64,000 nucleotides of DNA from Thioalkalivibrio sp. ALE31 (GTDB lineage: Bacteria; Pseudomonadota; Gammaproteobacteria; Ectothiorhodospirales; Ectothiorhodospiraceae): the NCBI RefSeq assembly GCF_000377405.1, contig NZ_KB905020.1, forward strand, positions 434,001 to 498,000, written 5' to 3'. The position numbers were made by a program, and so were the translations under genes. The notes beneath the pieces were generated by a model. It did no database searches. It had not been told where the DNA came from and saw only the letters and a program-made list of their open reading frames with translations. Position 1 is the first letter of the stretch; every line of letters starts with the position of its first letter. Positions 52,716-63,217 of the stretch are shown one piece after another.

Positions 52716-54299
52716 ATGAAACGCAACCTGCCCGTGACCGGGAACGAGGTGGATTACCCGGAGAGTGCCAACATCCTTTCCACCACCAACCTCAAGGGGG
52801 CCATCACCTACGTCAACCCGGATTTCATCGACATCAGCGGGTTCGAACCGGACGAATTGCTCGGCAAGAACCACAACGTGGTCCGCCATCCCGATATGCC
52901 GCCGGCGGCGTTCGAGGACCTGTGGAACACCATCCAGGGCGGCCGCTCCTGGATGGGCCTGGTCAAGAACCGCTGCAAGAATGGCGATCACTACTGGGTC
53001 AACGCCTATGTGACGCCCGTAACGGAAGACGGGCAAACCGTCGAGTATCAGTCCGTTCGCACCAAGCCGCGGCGCGAACAGGTAGCCAAGGCTGAATCCG
53101 TCTACGCGGAACTCCTCCAGGGTCGCAGGCCCCTGGCCCTGCGCCTGCCCCCCATCGGCATCAAGGTCAGGACCGTAGCGGCCCTCGCCGGCGGCGTCCT
53201 GGCGGGGCTGATCGCCAGCAGCGTATTGACCGGCCTGTCCTGGTCGAGCGCCCTGATCTTCGCGCTGACCGCGCTAGTGGTGGGCGGCGCCCTGGTATGG
53301 ATCAGCCTGTCGCCCCTATGCCGCGCGGTGGCCCACGCCCGCCGCATCGCCAACAACCCGGTCAGCCAGTACATCTACTCCGGTCGTACCGACGAGGCCG
53401 GCGAGCTCCTGTTCGCCCTGGAGATGCTGGAGGCGGAGGGCGGCGCGGTCGTCGGGCGCATGGGGAATGCGGCCGAACGCCTTACCCGGACAGCCGACGC
53501 CCTGGTGACCGCGGTCGGTGACAGCCGGCAAGCCTGCAACCATCAACAAACCGAGACCGAACAGGTGGCGAGTGCCACCCAGCAGATGGTGAACAGCGTG
53601 CAGGAAGTCGCGCGCAGCGCCCAGGGTGCCGCCGATGCAGCGGATCGGACCGACCGCGAAGCCGGTGCCGGAAGTGCCGTGGTGGGCGAGAGCACTCAGG
53701 CGATCGAGAACTTGGGCAAGCGGATCCGCGATGGCTCCGGTGTAATGGCCGAACTGGACCAGCACAGCCAGGACATCACCAGCGTACTCGACGTCATCCG
53801 CGGCATCGCCGAGCAGACCAACCTGCTCGCCCTCAACGCGGCGATCGAGGCCGCGCGCGCCGGCGAACAGGGCCGTGGCTTCGCCGTAGTGGCGGACGAG
53901 GTGCGCACACTGGCCAGCCGAACGCAGGACTCCACCGCCGAAATCCAGCAGATGATCGAGCGTCTTCAGGATCGCGCACGGGCGGCAGTATCCACCATGG
54001 AGCGAAGCCGGGCTCAGGCCGAAACCAGCGTCGAACAGGCCCAACAGGCCGCGGCGGCACTGGACAATATCACCACGGGCGTCGGACAGATCCGCGACAT
54101 GAGCACCCGGATCGCGGCCGCCGTGGAACAACAGGGGACCGCCGGCGAAGAGATCCGCCGCGGGGTCGACTCCATCCGCAACGCAGCCGACACCACAGCG
54201 AACCGCGCCGACCAAAGCGAGGCCGCTGCCCGTGAGGTCGCACAGCTCGCCACAGGATTGCAGGGCCTTGCCCGGCAATTCTGGGCAAGACATCGCTGA
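52716..54299 (+). CDS. Aer-like PAS-domain chemoreceptor (energy taxis)
   Basis: The 527-residue protein begins with a PAS domain (about 15-120) resembling E. coli Aer: [40 protein letters not shown] and [15 protein letters not shown]. In Aer the conserved His/Asp/Trp set binds FAD and reports redox state. A hydrophobic segment (about 150-200) and a methyl-accepting domain with [31 protein letters not shown] follow. It is followed after 16 bases by a GGDEF/EAL gene, probably in one transcript. Energy taxis is inferred from the family. Confidence 0.92.
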
Positions 54300-54315
54300 A
54301 AGGAAAAGCATCCGG

Positions 54316-56841
54316 ATGACTTCCCGATCCGATCGGTACCTGCGCCAGCATATGGGCCTCGCCTCCGGCGTACTGCTGGCCCTGTTGCTGTTCCCACTGG
54401 TGATCTGGTTACTCGGCCTGGACCTGCCCCGGATCCTGCCCCGCGAGCACCTGACGGCGTTCCATACGGCGGCGGAGCTGTTCGCGGTGGTCGTCGCGGT
54501 ACTGGTGTTCGCGGTCGGCTACCACGTCATCGACCGGCGTCGGGTCGCCGCTTCGGTCCTGCTCGCCTGCGCCTTCCTGGCGGTCGCGCTGCTCGATTTC
54601 CTGCACCTGATGACCTATCCGGCGATGCCGGACTTCATCACCCCCAACTCGACGCAACAGACCCTGTTCTTCTGGCTGGCCGCGCGCCTCGTCGGTGCGG
54701 CCGCGTTGCTGGCCTACGTGGCCCTGCCGATGGTCGCCCACAGCGACGGGCCGCCTCGCCATATCTACCTGATCGGGAGCCTGTTGCTGGTCGCCCTGCT
54801 CGCATGGATCGGTCTGTGGCATGCCGGGATCATCCCGCCCCTGTTCGACCCGATCAGCGGCCTCACACCCTTCAAGATGGGGCTCGAGGCCCTGGTGATC
54901 GCCCTGCATCTGGTCACGCTGGCCCTGCTGATCCTGCGCCGCGAACTCCTGCAACGTCCCGGCATGCCACTAGTGGCCGCGGCGCTGGTCATCAGCATGG
55001 GTAGCGGGATGTTCTTCATGTTCTACGAAGACCTGACCGACACCCCCTTCGTACTGGGCCACCTGTACAAGCTAGCGGCCTACCTGCTGATCTACCAGGG
55101 TCTGTTTCTGGAAAGCGTGCGCTCGCCCCTGGAGCGTCTGCACCAGGCCCACCGCGACATCGAGATGCGCGAGCGGCGCTACCAGCAACTGGTGGAGACG
55201 GCCCCCGACGGCGTCCTGGTCACCGATACGGAGGGCCGCATCGTGATGGCCAACCGAAATATCGAACGCCTGTTCGGCTACCCCCGCCAGCAACTGATCG
55301 GCCAGCCGGTGGAGTGTCTGGTCCCGGACCGCCTGCGCGAGCGCCACCGAACCCATCGCGAGACCCAAGGCCGGAGCATCAACCGCCGCACCATGGGGCA
55401 GGTACCCCATCTGCGCGGCCAACGTATCGACGGCACCGAGTTCCCGGTGGACATCAGCCTCAACGCCTTCGAAGACACCGAAGGCCGCCGCATTACCGCC
55501 TTCATCCGCGACATCACCGACCGCCAGCGCCGCGAGGCGCGCATCCAGCATCAGGCCACCCATGACAGTCTGACCGAACTCCCCAACCGCTGGCTACTGC
55601 ACGACCGCCTGACGCAGGGCATCGCCCAGGCCGAGCACAACGACCACCCGATCGCGGTAATGCTGCTGGATCTCGACAACTTCAAGATGGTCAACGACAC
55701 CTTTGGCCATGACGAGGGCGACCAGCTGCTGAAGGCCGTGGCCGCCCGACTCCAGGGCGCCCTGGACCAGGAAGCCACCATCGGCCGCTTCGGTGGCGAC
55801 GAGTTCATGATCCTCCTGACCCACGTGGCGGACGAACAGGCGATCGCCCGGGTCGCCCAGCGCATCCTGGGTATCTTCGACACACCCTTCCAGACCGAAC
55901 ACGCGCGCAACCTCGTCTCCAGCGGCAGCCTCGGGATCGCCATGTTCCCGCGCGACGCCCAGGACGATCGCAGCCTGGTGCGCTATGCCGACATGGCCAT
56001 GTACGAGGCCAAGCACTCCGGCCGCAACACCTGGGCCTTCTTTTCGCAGCACCTGGATGCCCAGGTGCACGAGGAACAGCGCCTGCAACAGCGCCTGCAA
56101 CAGGCGCTGGAGAATGCCGACCTCGAGCTGCACTACCAGCCACTGCTGGAGGTCGCGTCGAACCGCGTGATCGGCGTCGAGGCCCTGGCTCGCTGGACCG
56201 ATGCCGAGCTCGGGCCGGTGGCACCGGCCCGCTTTGTCGCCAGCGCGGAGGCCAACGGCCTGATCCTGCCCCTGGGCGACTGGGTCATCCGCGAGGCCTG
56301 CGAACAGCTCGCCCAATGGTCACGGGCCGGCGTCGGGCTCCGCGTCGCCATCAATATCTCCGCGATGCAGTTCCGCCAGCATGACCTGGTGGAACGCCTG
56401 CGCGCGGCCCTCGAGGCGACCGGCGCCCCGCCCGAGCGACTCGAGATCGAGGTAACCGAGACCGTCGCCATGGCGGATGTGGCCCTGACCCACGATCAGC
56501 TCCGCGGCCTGAAGGCCCTGGGCATCCGGGTGGCCCTGGACGACTTCGGCACCGGCTATTCCTCGCTCGCCTACCTGAAGTCCCTGCCCATCGACAAGCT
56601 CAAGATCGACCGCTCCTTCATCGCCGACATCGGCGAGGACCCGGAATCGGAGATGATCCTGCGCTCCATCGTGCACCTCGGCCACAGCCTCGGCCTGACG
56701 CTCGTCGCCGAAGGCGTGGAAACGGACGCACAACGAACCTTCCTGCGGGAAATCGGCTGTGACCTGTACCAGGGCTGGCTGCATTCGCATGCGATGGCCG
56801 CAGGGGCCCTCAAGGAACGCCTGCAACACGAAACGGTGTGA
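54316..56841 (+). CDS. MASE3-PAS-GGDEF-EAL cyclic-di-GMP protein
   Basis: From ATG 54316 the product has 841 residues. The first 280 residues hold about eight membrane helices of MASE3 type (AFHTAAELFAVVVAVLVFAVGY, LDFLHLMTYPAMPDF). A PAS domain follows (about 290-410, APDGVLVTDTEGRIVMANRN). The GGDEF motif is intact at 493-497 (RFGGDEF) but no RxxD inhibitory site precedes it. The EAL domain has VEALARW at about 621-627, NISAMQF, DDFGTGYSSL, KIDRSFI and EGVET, so it looks catalytically complete. AGGA lies about 12 bases upstream. Cytoplasmic c-di-GMP turnover, possibly both synthesis and breakdown. Confidence 0.94.
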   Translation: MTSRSDRYLRQHMGLASGVLLALLLFPLVIWLLGLDLPRILPREHLTAFHTAAELFAVVVAVLVFAVGYHVIDRRRVAASVLLACAFLAVALLDFLHLMTYPAMPDFITPNSTQQTLFFWLAARLVGAAALLAYVALPMVAHSDGPPRHIYLIGSLLLVALLAWIGLWHAGIIPPLFDPISGLTPFKMGLEALVIALHLVTLALLILRRELLQRPGMPLVAAALVISMGSGMFFMFYEDLTDTPFVLGHLYKLAAYLLIYQGLFLESVRSPLERLHQAHRDIEMRERRYQQLVETAPDGVLVTDTEGRIVMANRNIERLFGYPRQQLIGQPVECLVPDRLRERHRTHRETQGRSINRRTMGQVPHLRGQRIDGTEFPVDISLNAFEDTEGRRITAFIRDITDRQRREARIQHQATHDSLTELPNRWLLHDRLTQGIAQAEHNDHPIAVMLLDLDNFKMVNDTFGHDEGDQLLKAVAARLQGALDQEATIGRFGGDEFMILLTHVADEQAIARVAQRILGIFDTPFQTEHARNLVSSGSLGIAMFPRDAQDDRSLVRYADMAMYEAKHSGRNTWAFFSQHLDAQVHEEQRLQQRLQQALENADLELHYQPLLEVASNRVIGVEALARWTDAELGPVAPARFVASAEANGLILPLGDWVIREACEQLAQWSRAGVGLRVAINISAMQFRQHDLVERLRAALEATGAPPERLEIEVTETVAMADVALTHDQLRGLKALGIRVALDDFGTGYSSLAYLKSLPIDKLKIDRSFIADIGEDPESEMILRSIVHLGHSLGLTLVAEGVETDAQRTFLREIGCDLYQGWLHSHAMAAGALKERLQHETV

Positions 56842-56970
56842 CGCACGCCCCGCCACCACTCCCTGCAATTGGCCAGGGGATTACATTCCATGCGGATTGC
56901 GTCTAGGTTCTGAAGGGATGCGCTCACAGAAGGCGGCACAAGACCGCCCGGGCGAAGGCCAGGGGGCAGG

Positions 56971-59379
56971 ATGGACAGCCAGGAAGCCAGCGACTCCACA
57001 GCAACCGTGGGGTCCAGTAATGCGCACGATTATCGCTCGGCCGTAGCGATCGCAGCGGGATTTGCGGTCGTCCTGCTGTTGATGATGGTGATGGTCATGA
57101 TCGGCCTCGAGCGCATCGGTCAGGTACACGATCGCCTGGACGTGATCGTCCACGAGCACAACGTCAAGACCGAACTCCTCAACAACATGCGCACGGCCGC
57201 GCGCGAACGCTCGGTCACCCTGCTGCGCCTGTCGATCACCGATGACCCCTTCGATCTCGACGCGGGGATCATGGAGTTCCGCTCGCACGCGTCGGACTTC
57301 ATGGTCAACCGCAACCAGCTCGAGGCCATGCCCCTCACGGAACGCGAGCAGGCCCTTCTAACCGAAGGCCGCGAACTGACATCGAGCGCGGTCGAGGTCC
57401 AGGAACGCGTACTCAACAAGATCCTGGATGACGACCTGGAGGCTGCCACAAGCTGGCTACTCGAACAGGCCATCCCGATGCAGAACGAGGTCCTGGCGAA
57501 TCTCGGCACCCTCCTGGAACTGCAGCAGGAGGCCTCCGAAGCCGCGGCGCGGGACACGGCCGAGCAATACCGGAACGCGGTGCAGTTCATGTCCCTGCTG
57601 GGGACCGCCGCCCTGCTGATCGGCATCGTCGTAGCGGTGGCCGTCCTGCGCCGCAGCCGTGATATCGAGGCGGAGCTGTTCCGCGAGAAGGAACGCGCCC
57701 AGGTCACCTTGCACGCCATCGGCGACGCGGTCATTACCATCGACACGGACGGGCGCATCGACTACCTCAACCCGGTGGCCGAACACCTGACCGGCTGGAG
57801 CGATGCCGAGGCCCGCGACGAACAACTGGACCGGGTGTTCCGCACCATCCGCGAGGACGACGGCCAGCTACTCCCCCACCCCCTGGTGGACATGGTCCCC
57901 GACGGCACGACCTGCAGCCTCAACCAGGACACGATCCTGGTCTCCCGTGACGGCCACGAATACGCCATCGAGGAGGTCTCCGCGCCCATCCGTGATCGCA
58001 CGGGCGCCGTCATCGGGGCCGCCCTGGTATTCCGGGACGTCTCCCGGGCGCGCGAAATGGCGCGCGACCTGTCCTGGGCCGCCACCCACGACTGCCTGAC
58101 ATCGCTGGCCAATCGGCTGGAGTTCGAACGCCGCCTGCGTCAGCTCGTCACCAGTGCCCATCACGACGGGCGCGAACACGCCCTGCTGTACATGGACCTG
58201 GACCAGTTCAAGCTGGTCAACGATACCTGCGGGCACGGTGCCGGCGACGACCTGCTGTGCCAGCTGACCTCGCACATGCAGGCTCAACTGCGCGAAAGCG
58301 ACACCCTCGCCCGCCTCGGCGGCGACGAGTTCGGCGTCCTCCTGGAAAGCTGCCCGTTACAACGCGCCGAAGAGATCGCGGAGAAACTGCGGCGCGCAAT
58401 GGAACAATTCCGCTTCGACTGGGACGGCCGCATGTTCCGGATCGGCATCAGCATCGGGGTCGTCCCGGTCCGTGGCGAGCACGGAGACGCGGCCCAGTTC
58501 ATGAGCGAAGCCGACGCCGCCTGTTACCTGGCCAAGGAACGCGGGCGCAACCGTATCCATGTCTCGCGCCCCGACGACGCGGCCCTTTGCCGGCACCAGG
58601 GCGAGATGAACTGCCTGCAGCGCATCAATCACGCCCTGGAGAACGACCAGTTCTGGCTGTACGGCCAGCACATCGAGCCAATCACCAGTGGCGGTCCCCG
58701 CCACATCGAGGTGCTGCTGCGGATGATCAACGACGAGGGCGCGATCACACCGCCCAGTACCTTCATCCCGGCCGCCGAACGCTACGGCCTGATGGCGGCC
58801 ATCGACCGCTGGGTCATCGACCGGGTATTGCAGGTCGCCCGCCACACCGCGCCCACGGACGGCCATTTCGCCATCAACCTGTCGGGCCAGTCGCTGTGCG
58901 AGCGCGGCATGCTGGACTACATCGTCGAACGCATCCAGACCAGCGGCGTGGCGCCTGGCCGCCTGTGCTTCGAGATCACTGAAACCGCCGCGATCGCCAA
59001 TCTCAACCAGGCCAGTCGCTTCGTGAACACCCTGCGCGCCATGGGCTGCTGCTTCTCGCTGGACGACTTCGGCACCGGGATGGCGTCCTTCGGCTACCTC
59101 AAGACCCTGCGCGTGGATTACCTGAAGATCGACGGCAGCTTCGTGCGCGACATGAGCGACGACCCGATCAGCCATGCCATGGTCGAGAGCATCCACCACA
59201 TCGGCCAGGTCATGGGCATCAAGACGGTCGCCGAATGTGTCTCCCACGAAGACCTGCTGCCACCCCTGCGCGCGATCGGCATCGACTACGCCCAGGGCTT
59301 CGGGCTGCACCTGCCGGAACCCCTGGAACCGTGCCCGGTTCCGAGCCAAGCCTCCACCACCGACACTCGCTACGCCTGA
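56971..59379 (+). CDS. 4HB-PAS-GGDEF-EAL cyclic-di-GMP protein with EVL variant
   Basis: The 802-residue protein has a first membrane helix (about 24-44), a periplasmic four-helix-bundle-like region (about 50-200), a second helix (about 207-224) and a PAS domain (about 240-350). The GGDEF motif is intact at 450-454, with an RESD inhibitory site at 441-444. The EAL domain starts EVLLRM at 580, keeping the catalytic Glu but with Val for Ala. It otherwise keeps EITET, LDDFGTGMAS, KIDGSFV and AECV. Its start lies 129 bases after the previous gene, so it may share its transcript or have its own promoter. Confidence 0.93.
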   Translation: MDSQEASDSTATVGSSNAHDYRSAVAIAAGFAVVLLLMMVMVMIGLERIGQVHDRLDVIVHEHNVKTELLNNMRTAARERSVTLLRLSITDDPFDLDAGIMEFRSHASDFMVNRNQLEAMPLTEREQALLTEGRELTSSAVEVQERVLNKILDDDLEAATSWLLEQAIPMQNEVLANLGTLLELQQEASEAAARDTAEQYRNAVQFMSLLGTAALLIGIVVAVAVLRRSRDIEAELFREKERAQVTLHAIGDAVITIDTDGRIDYLNPVAEHLTGWSDAEARDEQLDRVFRTIREDDGQLLPHPLVDMVPDGTTCSLNQDTILVSRDGHEYAIEEVSAPIRDRTGAVIGAALVFRDVSRAREMARDLSWAATHDCLTSLANRLEFERRLRQLVTSAHHDGREHALLYMDLDQFKLVNDTCGHGAGDDLLCQLTSHMQAQLRESDTLARLGGDEFGVLLESCPLQRAEEIAEKLRRAMEQFRFDWDGRMFRIGISIGVVPVRGEHGDAAQFMSEADAACYLAKERGRNRIHVSRPDDAALCRHQGEMNCLQRINHALENDQFWLYGQHIEPITSGGPRHIEVLLRMINDEGAITPPSTFIPAAERYGLMAAIDRWVIDRVLQVARHTAPTDGHFAINLSGQSLCERGMLDYIVERIQTSGVAPGRLCFEITETAAIANLNQASRFVNTLRAMGCCFSLDDFGTGMASFGYLKTLRVDYLKIDGSFVRDMSDDPISHAMVESIHHIGQVMGIKTVAECVSHEDLLPPLRAIGIDYAQGFGLHLPEPLEPCPVPSQASTTDTRYA

Positions 59380-59616: not shown

Positions 59617-59988
59617 TCAGTAGCCGGTGCTGCCGTGTACGTCCGGCGGCGCCTCGCGGGTCAGCATTGCCCAGGTCAGGTGGGCCATCACCTCCGGCGC
59701 CACCACCGTATGGCGGTTGCCGGTGTTCTGCATGCCCTCGCGCAGCTCCTGGCGCACCTGCGGCTGGCCGCTCAGGTCAAAGATCACGTCCACCTGGTCG
59801 CCACGCGCCACGATATCCGCGACCGACTCCAGCGGGATACCCTTCTCCTCGGCCAGCCGGCGGCCCTCCGTCTCGGCTTTCTCCGAGACCGCGCAAAGCG
59901 TCATCCCCGGCAGGCCGGACTCGAGCAACATCTCCAGGAAACGGCCGCCCACCCGGCCAAGCCCCACGACTGCAATGTGAATCGACAT
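59617..59988 (-). CDS. Stand-alone NAD(P)-binding Rossmann domain protein
   Basis: From ATG 59988, with GGAGT upstream, the product has 123 residues: MSIHIAVVGLGRVGGRFLEM, with a GxGxxG motif at 9-14. It continues with SVADIVARGDQVDVIFDLSG and ends with no catalytic domain. The fold recalls the NAD-binding half of homoserine, aspartate or DapB-type dehydrogenases. The frame extends to 60144 but without family resemblance. A role as a cofactor or redox sensor is possible but unproven. Confidence 0.75.
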   Translation of the reverse strand: MSIHIAVVGLGRVGGRFLEMLLESGLPGMTLCAVSEKAETEGRRLAEEKGIPLESVADIVARGDQVDVIFDLSGQPQVRQELREGMQNTGNRHTVVAPEVMAHLTWAMLTREAPPDVHGSTGY

Positions 59989-60184
59989 AAACACTCCATC
60001 CTGTTGGTCTTGTTGTTGTCTCCACACACGCACCGCAGGCGCCACCCGCGAAACGTGTCCCCTGACTGTAGGCGATCCGCACCGCGCCTGCACGGCATCC
60101 CTCGCCCCGCCCCGCATCCGGCCATTTGGCGCGTATGGCCCCACGCCCTACAGTGCCCGCAACCCGTCAACGAATGGAGCCCCC

Positions 60185-60832
60185 ATGGACAACGTGCACC
60201 TGCCAATCCGCGTCGACCGCCGCGAACAGGGCAAGATCATTCAGCGCATCGAACGCCTGGAAGGGGTGGAACTGGAATTCACCGACCTCGATGTGGGCGA
60301 CTACCTGCTGCCCAACGGCGTCGTGGTCGAGCGCAAGTCCGCCACCGACATGGTGCTGAGCGTGGTCGACAAGACCCTGTGGGAAAACGCCGCCAAGCTG
60401 AAGGCCAACCACAGCCAGGTGGTCTATATCGTCGAGGGGGACCTGTACGAACCGCGCTTCCACCAGCAGGCGCTGGATATCCACCGTGCCCTCGCGCACC
60501 TGACCATCGCCCTCGGCATTAGCGTGCTGCCCAGCCCGGATGCCGACAACAGCGGCATGCTCATCTACCTGCTGGGCCTGAACGCCCAGATGGAGCCGGA
60601 CCCGGCCGATCGCCCCACCAAGCCGGACACCCGGCGCAAGGCCGCCGAGTTCATCGTCAGCGGCCTGCCCGGCGTCGAGGCCGACACGGCACGCGACCTG
60701 CTGCGCGACCTCGGCAGCGTACGCGACATCATCAACGCCGACGCCGCCACCCTCGCCCAGACCGACGGCCTCGACGCCGAACGCGCCGAACGCATCGAAT
60801 CCGTCGTCACCTACGGCAGCCGCACCACCTGA
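60185..60832 (+). CDS. ERCC4/XPF-type nuclease with helix-hairpin-helix domain
   Basis: The 215-residue protein resembles the nuclease core of XPF, Mus81 and archaeal Hef. Motifs are RVDRREQGK near 9-17, DVGDYLLPNG at 36-45 and VVERKSATDMVLSVVD, with the ERKxxxD signature at 49-55. VVYIVEGDLYEPRF continues the fold. The C-terminal 70 residues (GLPGVEADTARDLLRDLGSV) look like a helix-hairpin-helix DNA-binding domain. It would cut branched or 3'-flap DNA, by analogy. GGAG lies six bases upstream of the ATG. It lies beside recD but in the opposite, convergent orientation. Confidence 0.88.
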   Translation: MDNVHLPIRVDRREQGKIIQRIERLEGVELEFTDLDVGDYLLPNGVVVERKSATDMVLSVVDKTLWENAAKLKANHSQVVYIVEGDLYEPRFHQQALDIHRALAHLTIALGISVLPSPDADNSGMLIYLLGLNAQMEPDPADRPTKPDTRRKAAEFIVSGLPGVEADTARDLLRDLGSVRDIINADAATLAQTDGLDAERAERIESVVTYGSRTT

Positions 60833-60862
60833 ACGCCCCCAAGCCGCCAACCACACCACCCC

Positions 60863-60886
60863 CTGTGGGAGCCTGCTCGCAGGCGA
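60863..60886. repeat. REP-like sequence
   Basis: CTGTGGGAGCCTGCTCGCAG contains the hairpin GCCTGC-TC-GCAGGC and matches the REP consensus pattern known from Pseudomonas (TGTGGGAGC...GCGA). It lies 30 bases after the ERCC4-type gene. Confidence 0.65.
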
Positions 60887-60970
60887 AGCCCCCGCCAAAG
60901 CCGGAACACCCCGGCCATCACCCGGCCCCGGCACCGTCACCCCAACCGCAGCACCACCCAACCCCCGGAC

Positions 60971-61002
60971 ATCCCGGCCGCAGCGCAGCGAAGCGCCGGG
61001 AT
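60971..61002. repeat. ATCCCGG-type palindrome (copy 1)
   Basis: ATCCCGGC (60971-60978) pairs with GCCGGGAT (60995-61002) around a CGCAGCG-rich loop. A related palindrome follows at 61050. The 273-base gap 60833-61105 holds these repeats and no gene. Confidence 0.6.
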
Positions 61003-61049
61003 CCCCCCGCCGGATGTACCCCAGGCCCAGGGCCACCCCAACGCTCGAG

Positions 61050-61081
61050 ATCCCGGATAACCGCTACGCGGTTTCCGGGAT
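61050..61081. repeat. ATCCCGG-type palindrome (copy 2), possible terminator of recD
   Basis: ATCCCGGA and inner AACCGC pair with GCGGTT and TCCGGGAT around TAC, a 14-bp stem with a small bulge. It is 25 bases downstream of the recD stop on the minus strand. No T-run follows, so it may act as an RNA-stability or REP-like element rather than an intrinsic terminator. Confidence 0.6.
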
Positions 61082-61105
61082 GACGCCACCGCCCCCCGCA
61101 CCTCC

Positions 61106-63217
61106 CTACGGCGCATCGTCCAGCCAGCGGCGCAGGCCGCCGCTGCGGCGGATCTGGCGCTGACTGGCCGCGGCCAAGGTGCCCGCTCGTGGCTCCAGCA
61201 GGCTGAACCAGCGGCTGGCGCGGGTGATCGCGGTGTAGACCAGCTCGCGGGTCAGGATGGGGCTGTCGGCCTCCGGCAGTACCAGCGCGACATGCTCGAA
61301 CTCCGAGCCCTGGGCCTTGTGCACAGTCAGCGCAAAGGCGGTCTCGACGGCCTCCAGCCGGTTGGGCAAAACCCAGCGCACGCGATCCCCCGCCGCGAGA
61401 AAGGCGACGCGCAGCACCGGCGCCGCCGCCTCCGGACCCCCATGATCCCCGGTCGCCTCGGGCTCGCCCCGCGCCAGCCAGGCCGGAACGGCCAGGGCAA
61501 TGCCGATATCGCCATTGATCAGCCCCAGCGCATAGTCGTTGCGGGTCACGATCACCGGTCGCCCCTCGAACCATGGCGCATGCCCCTCTGACCCGCCGCC
61601 ACGGCCGGCATCCACCTCCAGCAGCCCGCGCGCCTGCAGCGCCCCGGCGATACGCCGGTTGAGCGTCTCCAGCCCCCACGGGCCACGCCGCACCGCGCAC
61701 AGCAGCTGGAAGCGCCCGTGGGCCGCGAGCACGTCCCGCGCCCAGTCCTCCCAGGCCGCCCGCGGCGCGGCCGGGGCCGGGCGGGCCGCACGCAGGCCCT
61801 GCAGATACCCGGAATAGCCCACTGCCTCGTTCACGGGCGTATCCGTGCGCCCGTCCACCGCGAGACTCACCAGTGCCGGGTCCTCCGGACCGGCGAGCAC
61901 GCGCTGCAGGACGGCATCGTCCCCGCCCGCTTCGCTCGACGACTCGCCCGCGTTCACGGCGGCCGCCAGCCGCCCGATCCCGCTGTCCGCGCCGAAGCGA
62001 TGACTCTCGCGCAGCATCACGATGTGCTGGTCCAGCGCCTGCCCGTGCGCATCCTGCATCGCCGCGGGCATGGCCATCCCGGTCACCGCTTCCAGCCACT
62101 GCGCGGTCTCCGGCGTGTAGTGCCCACCGCCGGCGCGGTGACACAGCTCGCCCAGCACCGCGCCGGCCTCCACTGATGCCAACTGGTCGCGATCCCCCAG
62201 CAGAATCAGGCGCGCCGTGCGCGGCACCGCGGCGACCAGACTGGCCATCAACTCCAGGTCGATCATCGAGGCCTCGTCCACCACCAGCACGTCCACCGCC
62301 AGGGGATTGCGGGCCCCGTGGCGGAAGTGCCGGGTATCCGGCCGCGCGCCCAGCAGCCGGTGTACCGTCACCACCTCCGCCGGCAGGTTTCGCCGCAGCG
62401 CATCGCCGTCCGGCAGCGTCTCCAGCCCCAGGCGGTCCAGCGCCCCGCTGACCGAGGCGTTCAGACGGGCCGCCGCCTTGCCGGTGGGCGCGGCCAGGCG
62501 AATCCGCAGCGGGTCTTCGGGCCCCTGCAAACCCTGCAGCAGCGCGAGCAACCGCAGCACCGTGGTGGTCTTGCCCGTGCCCGGCCCGCCGGTAATCACG
62601 CTGAAGCCGGAACCGGCGGCCAGGGCACAGGCCAGGCGCTGCCAGTCCGGGTCGGCGGTCGCATCGGCCGAAATGCCGAACAGGCGATCCAGCCAGCCAT
62701 GCGCCGCGTCCACATCCAGCGCGTCCTGCCAGGCGCCCCGGTCTTCAAGCCGCGCGCGGACCGCCTGTCCGATGCGGCGCTCGGCCTCCCAGTAGCGGCG
62801 CAGATAGACCTGCCCTCCAGTGAACACCAGCGGCGTCGTGCCCGCCTCGCCCGGTCCGGCCAGGGCACTCCCGTCCAGGGCCTGCGCCACCTGCGCGCCC
62901 GACACACCCTGCAGGACCGCCGAGGGCCGCGGCGGTGGCTGCGAACCCGGATCCCCCTCCGGCGGCAAAGCCAGCGTGGCATCGGGCGTCTCCAGCAAGG
63001 CCTCCAGCTCCAGACACACATGGCCGCGCCCGACCTGATGGCTGGCCAGCGCCGCCAGCAGCAGGGCCAGCGGCGATGCCTCCGGGGCCTGCTCGTGCAG
63101 AAAGCGCACCAGCGCCCGGTCCACGCCCCGCAGCCAGCCAGCGGCCTCCCACTCGCCCAGGAGACCCACCAGGGCCTCCACCGACCCCAACGCCCGGGTA
63201 TGTGTGACCACGCTCAT
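61106..63217 (-). CDS. recD: Exodeoxyribonuclease V alpha subunit (RecD)
   Basis: RecD is the 5'-3' helicase of RecBCD. The product has 703 residues, longer than the 608 of E. coli. Walker A is ITGGPGTGKTTT at about 208-219, motif II VLVVDEASMIDLEL, and VHKAQGSEFEHVALVLP and YTAITRASRWF are late SF1 helicase motifs. The start overlaps the recB stop as ATGA, so the two are coupled. No recC is visible; it probably lies upstream of recB beyond the window. Confidence 0.96.
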   Translation of the reverse strand: MSVVTHTRALGSVEALVGLLGEWEAAGWLRGVDRALVRFLHEQAPEASPLALLLAALASHQVGRGHVCLELEALLETPDATLALPPEGDPGSQPPPRPSAVLQGVSGAQVAQALDGSALAGPGEAGTTPLVFTGGQVYLRRYWEAERRIGQAVRARLEDRGAWQDALDVDAAHGWLDRLFGISADATADPDWQRLACALAAGSGFSVITGGPGTGKTTTVLRLLALLQGLQGPEDPLRIRLAAPTGKAAARLNASVSGALDRLGLETLPDGDALRRNLPAEVVTVHRLLGARPDTRHFRHGARNPLAVDVLVVDEASMIDLELMASLVAAVPRTARLILLGDRDQLASVEAGAVLGELCHRAGGGHYTPETAQWLEAVTGMAMPAAMQDAHGQALDQHIVMLRESHRFGADSGIGRLAAAVNAGESSSEAGGDDAVLQRVLAGPEDPALVSLAVDGRTDTPVNEAVGYSGYLQGLRAARPAPAAPRAAWEDWARDVLAAHGRFQLLCAVRRGPWGLETLNRRIAGALQARGLLEVDAGRGGGSEGHAPWFEGRPVIVTRNDYALGLINGDIGIALAVPAWLARGEPEATGDHGGPEAAAPVLRVAFLAAGDRVRWVLPNRLEAVETAFALTVHKAQGSEFEHVALVLPEADSPILTRELVYTAITRASRWFSLLEPRAGTLAAASQRQIRRSGGLRRWLDDAP

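Follow-up and report, generated by a model that had tools for sequence, protein, structure and literature searches.

A small chromosomal XPF-like nuclease with altered helix-hairpin-helix hairpins in Thioalkalivibrio

The window, that is, the whole stretch of 64,000 nucleotides analysed from the soda-lake bacterium Thioalkalivibrio sp. ALE31, carries an xpf-like gene whose product we read, with moderate confidence, as a stand-alone chromosomal structure-specific endonuclease of the XPF family, dimeric, acting on forks or flaps and with an unusual helix-hairpin-helix (HhH) domain. The stand-alone part of this reading rests on the motifs of the protein, the domain order of short archaeal XPF, purifying selection, the single copy and the absence of an operon partner. 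XPF-type nucleases are best known from archaea and eukaryotes. A 2018 review described XPF proteins as being without direct orthologues in bacteria (PMC6320978). Bacterial XPF-like proteins are already known, both from plasmid annotation and from a published type I-G CRISPR gene; the chromosomal group described below (group A), with its altered hairpins, seems to be a new subfamily. We found no publication on group A or on its hairpin change, an absence that is weak evidence.

The xpf-like gene and its product

The coordinates of the gene, its domains and its neighbours are collected in Table 1. The open reading frame starts with ATG, five bases downstream of a GGAG sequence, and a consensus search revealed neither a sigma-70 promoter nor a terminator at the gene. 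No LexA-type site (CTGT-N8-ACAG, with at most one mismatch) was present nearby, so SOS control was rejected, with the reservation that the genus may use another box.

Table 1. Features of the xpf-like gene and its immediate neighbours (positions in the window)
Feature	Position	Strand	Basis
xpf-like gene, ERCC4 nuclease + (HhH)2	60185..60832	+	215 aa ORF
ERCC4 nuclease domain, residues 10-129	60212..60571	+	Pfam PF02732, 66 bits
ERKxxxD catalytic motif, E49 R50 K51 ... D55	60329..60349	+	sequence/alignment
Tandem helix-hairpin-helix domain, about residues 155-208	60647..60808	+	PF14520, 29.1 bits; match to Hef HhH 1x2i
Hairpin 1, G163 V164 E165, Glu for second GhG Gly	60671..60679	+	alignment, 29 homologues
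Hairpin 2, G195 L196 D197, Asp for second Gly	60767..60775	+	homologue alignment
Probable ribosome-binding site GGAG, 5 nt before ATG	60176..60179	+	sequence
recD, convergent neighbour	61106..63217	-	TIGR01447, 538 bits; not part of the system
Divergent neighbour, NAD-binding Rossmann-like	59617..59988	-	weak sub-threshold matches only

The Pfam search of the product returned ERCC4 with an E-value of 4.4e-18 (66 bits, well over the cut-off of 24) and HHH_5 with 29.1 bits, just over its cut-off of 27. N-terminal to ERKxxxD lie VDRRE at residues 10-14 (D11, R13, E14) and GD at residues 38-39, which makes the set of nuclease-motif residues VDxRE, GD and ERKxxxD complete. The original prediction, which saw a bacterial protein with a nuclease core of the XPF/Hef type and an HhH domain at the C-terminus and proposed an ERCC4 HMM search, is thus borne out, and so is its statement that no helicase is fused: no helicase domain was found in the 215 amino acids, and the Hef model was matched only at positions 572-776. 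That match, to the C-terminus of Hef (NF010337, 138 bits), was the best in NCBIfam, followed by archaeal Xpf (NF040956, 77.6 bits); both scores fall below the respective equivalog cut-offs of 610 and 300. The gene is the sole ERCC4 match in its own genome.

The XPF of Aeropyrum pernix (2bgw/2bhn) aligns with residues 8-208, almost end to end (E=1.4e-19), and the Hef nuclease of P. furiosus (1j22) aligns over the nuclease domain. AlphaFold, given a shallow alignment of 11 sequences, produced a poor model (pLDDT 54, pTM 0.42). Foldseek searches with this model put A. pernix XPF first at E=8.5e-07, and they also found the Hef HhH domain 1x2i with an rmsd of 0.9 over 57 columns; as the whole-chain TM-scores were low and the model was poor, we give this result little weight.

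Short crenarchaeal XPF proteins (A. pernix 2bgw, Sulfolobus solfataricus) share with the xpf-like protein the order of the domains, the length, the catalytic motifs and the lack of a helicase, but they carry a C-terminal PCNA motif, whereas the xpf-like sequence ends in ...VVTYGSRTT soon after the HhH domain and has no tail with a PIP (PCNA-interaction) motif. It also differs from them in lacking the second Gly in both hairpins and in its bacterial host. Euryarchaeal Hef, whose C-terminal nuclease half gave the NCBIfam match, has an N-terminal SF2 helicase that the xpf-like protein lacks, and the score stays far under the Hef cut-off. Archaeal XPFs are homodimeric (PMC6320978). The partner helicase invoked by the original prediction may not be needed; the crenarchaeal XPF likewise has no helicase and acts as a homodimer carrying a PCNA motif (PMC6320978).

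Group A, its hairpins and its distribution

A tree built from 31 sequences separates group A from the rest at a branch that is supported at 100/98 and present in 100% of the bootstrap trees; branches elsewhere in this tree are long, and its deeper placing is unsure. The second Gly of the hairpin has been lost at both hairpins in all 19 HhH-bearing sequences of group A, and it is kept in the other bacterial homologues (8/9 at hairpin 1 and 9/9 at hairpin 2) as well as in A. pernix XPF. In place of the GhG signature the window protein has PGVE and DGLD. Hairpin 1 of the group reads PGVE, PGVD, PGVA, PGID or PNID, and at hairpin 2 the substitute is Asp in all aligned Thioalkalivibrio copies and in G147, and Arg in G141 and G245. 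This pattern suggests that the glycine was probably lost in one event per hairpin on the stem branch, rather than in many independent ones. Human XPF-ERCC1 and FANCM-FAAP24 have HhH hairpins that likewise depart from the canonical form (PMC6320978, PMC3711432), although these are heterodimers with helicase-like domains, whereas we found only one ERCC4 protein in the genome of the window. Since human XPF and FANCM depart from it too, GhG is typical of the XPF/MUS81 family rather than strictly defining, and its absence does not exclude membership of that (ERCC4) family.

The change extends beyond the two glycines. Of the six other homologues scanned with the single-motif HHH model of Pfam, five scored 37-47 bits and G034 scored 17, whereas group A gave no match or a marginal one. 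The net charge of the C-terminal third ranges from acidic to neutral in group A (-3 to 0 in the five members with an HhH domain that were checked) and is mostly basic in the others (+1 to +11 in 8/9). Both types coexist in strain K90mix, where the chromosome holds a group-A copy and plasmid pTK9001 a homologue whose second hairpin is canonical, so the hairpin change is not part of a genome-wide acidic shift. Every nuclease-motif residue is kept in all the aligned Thioalkalivibrio copies. Some other members of the group are further altered: in G062 (L047) an ERCC4-only form of 141 aa has no HhH domain in any downstream frame, in G141 and G245 (L049, L051) EYK or DYK replaces ERK and VDxRE is absent, and G031 (L028) holds a truncated remnant in which the N-terminal part is gone and residues 118-212 are left. 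The copies of G141 and G245 adjoin a gene with, by appearance, an ABC-F-like N-terminus; G031 also carries a separate xpf-like gene, nearly identical to the CRISPR-linked one of G034.

A full-length copy is present in 26 of the 30 genomes of the genus, in two clades that are 80-97% (clade 1) and 57-61% (clade 2) identical to the window protein; in the named Thioalkalivibrio genomes the copies are 81-97% identical, most of them in the same gene order. The frame is open in relatives that are 57-97% identical to the window gene, and pairwise dN/dS values for the group-A gene range from 0.06 to 0.22, from which we conclude that the gene is real and under purifying selection. Seeming internal stops in the G013 and G019 copies turned out to be the regular terminal stop, beyond which the alignment had continued. 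It is also dispensable, as no match was found in G003, G009 and G011 (the last two single-contig) among the 30 genomes searched, and G018 (66% complete) gave an HhH-type (RadC) match only. HhH-only matches at residues 153-213 in other genomes were considered as second XPF copies and rejected, being RadC where inspected.

Outside the genus, group A occurs in three other small families (G147/G785, G062 and G141/G245). ERCC4 proteins of any kind were found in 13 of 370 genomes of the class and 4 of 398 of the phylum, with the window's own genome counted in both. The copy of G147 is 78-81% identical to clade 2, while the identity between clades 1 and 2 is only about 60%, and RecA is 85-89% identical across all pairs of G147, clade 1 and clade 2. 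As the closeness of G147 to clade 2 has no parallel in RecA, a transfer of the gene between families appears likely from these identities.

Group A is chromosomal, which disposes of the possibility, raised with the original prediction, that the homologues might be restricted to phages or plasmids. Outside group A, plasmid proteins annotated as 'ERCC4 domain-containing protein' (Pseudomonas megaplasmids, Polaromonas sp. JS666 plasmid 1, pTK9001) have the same two domains, but are 25-34% identical to the window protein, plasmid-borne and canonical in the second hairpin. On the conjugative Polaromonas plasmid the gene (L077:7989-8642) lies among PRTRC-system genes, a setting in which an association with plasmid maintenance is possible. 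The xpf-like protein of T. sulfidiphilus (WP_012638991.1; PMC9638904) is also a short bacterial XPF, from a related organism, but it is 28% identical to the window protein, belongs to another clade and has lost the second Gly in neither of its hairpins (PRVG, DGIG). Its gene sits between Csb2 and Cas4-1, whereas no cas genes were recognised beside that of the window. In G034, which is T. sulfidiphilus HL-EbGr7 by gene order, we located an xpf-like gene within a type I-G CRISPR-Cas locus (L059:5966-17331) that holds Csb2, Cas7, Cas3g, Cas4-Cas1, Cas2 and a repeat array, as already noted in PMC9638904, where the gene was proposed to serve prespacer processing.

Genomic context and alternative readings

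The xpf-like gene does lie beside recD, as the original prediction said. The two genes converge and are 273 nt apart in the window, and beyond recD follows the C-terminal part of recB, on the strand opposite to the xpf-like gene. The stretch between the convergent genes (60833-61105) contains a palindrome, GATCCCGGATAACCGCTACGCGGTTTCCGGGATG, similar to intergenic repeats of the REP type, and this gap takes insertions in relatives. On the other side, the NAD-binding neighbour, not an evident DNA-repair gene, adjoins the xpf-like gene in 12 of the 30 genomes of the genus, all of clade 1. Just 5' of the xpf-like gene, on the + strand, two large tandem ORFs of the PAS/GGDEF/EAL type occupy 54232-59379; Pfam confirmed the second (GGDEF, EAL, PAS), and the first was read from sequence alone.

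The adjacency to recD is limited to the closest relatives. The spacing is about 0.27 kb in the window and in G008, and it widens to 1.1 kb (G021, G002), 1.6 kb (G010) and 6.1 kb (G024), with a toxin-antitoxin pair (Phd-type antitoxin, PIN toxin) between the two genes in G021 (L033) and an RND efflux cluster in G024 (L038). In G001 and K90mix the distance grows to about 676 kb and about 651 kb, respectively. In five genomes (G026, G012, G020, G025 and G004) the xpf-like gene and recD are on separate contigs, and the 8-10 kb examined around the former contain no recD; in G022 the contigs end too early to show how the two genes are placed. Chromosomal contexts of the full-length copies differ among Thioalkalivibrio strains, the neighbours of the clade 2 copies are unrelated genes, and no conserved operon partner of group A was found in the neighbourhoods compared. 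Among the group-A carriers outside the genus, recD is present in G062 and G245 and was not detected in G147 (100% complete) and G141 (99%).

We give almost no credence to the proposal that the protein is a RecBCD accessory acting on recombination intermediates. Proximity speaks for it, since recD adjoins the gene in the window and lies 0.27-6.1 kb away in five further strains, but transcription is convergent, the adjacency is confined to closest relatives and gives way to about 650-680 kb in two strains, and near-complete G147 and G141 carry the nuclease with no recD match. With the adjacency not conserved and the nuclease present where recD is missing, a RecBCD partnership is unsupported, and we rejected it on synteny and co-occurrence. 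The original prediction had itself named the lack of a conserved recBCD neighbourhood as grounds against it, and its functional inference falls on that point. A role in excision repair like that of eukaryotic XPF, in which the protein would make the cut 5' of a lesion beside or instead of UvrC, is suggested by the shared nuclease family, yet is very improbable, as the protein is neither fused to nor flanked by an NER partner or a helicase and Haloferax Hef, from an organism with UvrABC, takes no part in NER (PMC7776575).

We consider it unlikely that group A is a mobile-element or defence nuclease that settled on the chromosome, for instance one for prespacer trimming or plasmid maintenance. 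Homologues on 152 plasmids (33-34% identity among the matches listed), one of them within a PRTRC cluster, the gene in the T. sulfidiphilus type I-G locus (PMC9638904), the strain-dependent context of group A and the transfer suggested by the identity of G147 to clade 2 are all consistent with such an origin. Against it, group A is a separate clade carried by most genomes of the genus, we recognised no cas or PRTRC genes beside the copies viewed, whose neighbours were mostly read by eye, and there was no match to a PADLOC model or a phage, nor a relative on a viral contig. A known defence family and a phage origin were rejected on the last grounds, and the window gene has no recognised cas gene next door and no place in the clade of the type I-G gene. 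Decay of group A into a non-catalytic scaffold that binds DNA or protein is quite improbable: the hairpins are degenerate throughout, and the EYK/DYK and VDxRE changes of G141 and G245, the HhH-less form of G062 and the N-terminally truncated remnant of G031 point that way, but the Thioalkalivibrio copies keep all nuclease-motif residues at a dN/dS well under 1.

Probable function and significance

A stand-alone fork or flap endonuclease is the reading that we retain. From what is known of the family, the protein would form a homodimer via its nuclease and HhH domains and nick branched DNA such as 3'-flaps, forks and recombination intermediates close to the point where single and double strands meet, as a helper that restarts or resolves blocked forks. 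Hef acts at stalled forks; that of Haloferax takes part in fork restart and provides a pathway alternative to the resolvase Hjc (PMC7776575). The hairpins qualify this picture. GxG hairpins have been described as indispensable for HhH domains to contact duplex DNA, and human XPF, whose HhH domain is non-canonical, binds single-stranded DNA with it (PMC6320978). Judging from its hairpins, the HhH domain of the xpf-like protein may no longer grip duplex phosphates in the standard way and may serve mainly for dimerisation or for contacts with single strands or a partner. If this grip is altered, DNA recognition would shift toward the nuclease domain or a putative partner; if the HhH domain binds DNA poorly, an ordinary fork-nuclease role becomes less certain. 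More tentatively, the group-A homodimer may have given up canonical GhG duplex binding altogether, with a bacterial partner or single-strand recognition aiming it at its substrate. In such a homodimer all four hairpins carry an acidic residue, Ala or Arg in place of the second Gly, and on this view the members with a lost HhH domain or changed nuclease motifs would have gone further along the same path.

The xpf-like protein is a small two-domain XPF, under selection and nearly universal in a cultivable genus, with no helicase, PCNA motif or ERCC1. The recD case is a reminder that a genomic neighbour can mislead on function, while the protein itself offers a simple system for studying how the nuclease core acts by itself and whether it can bypass the HhH hairpins.
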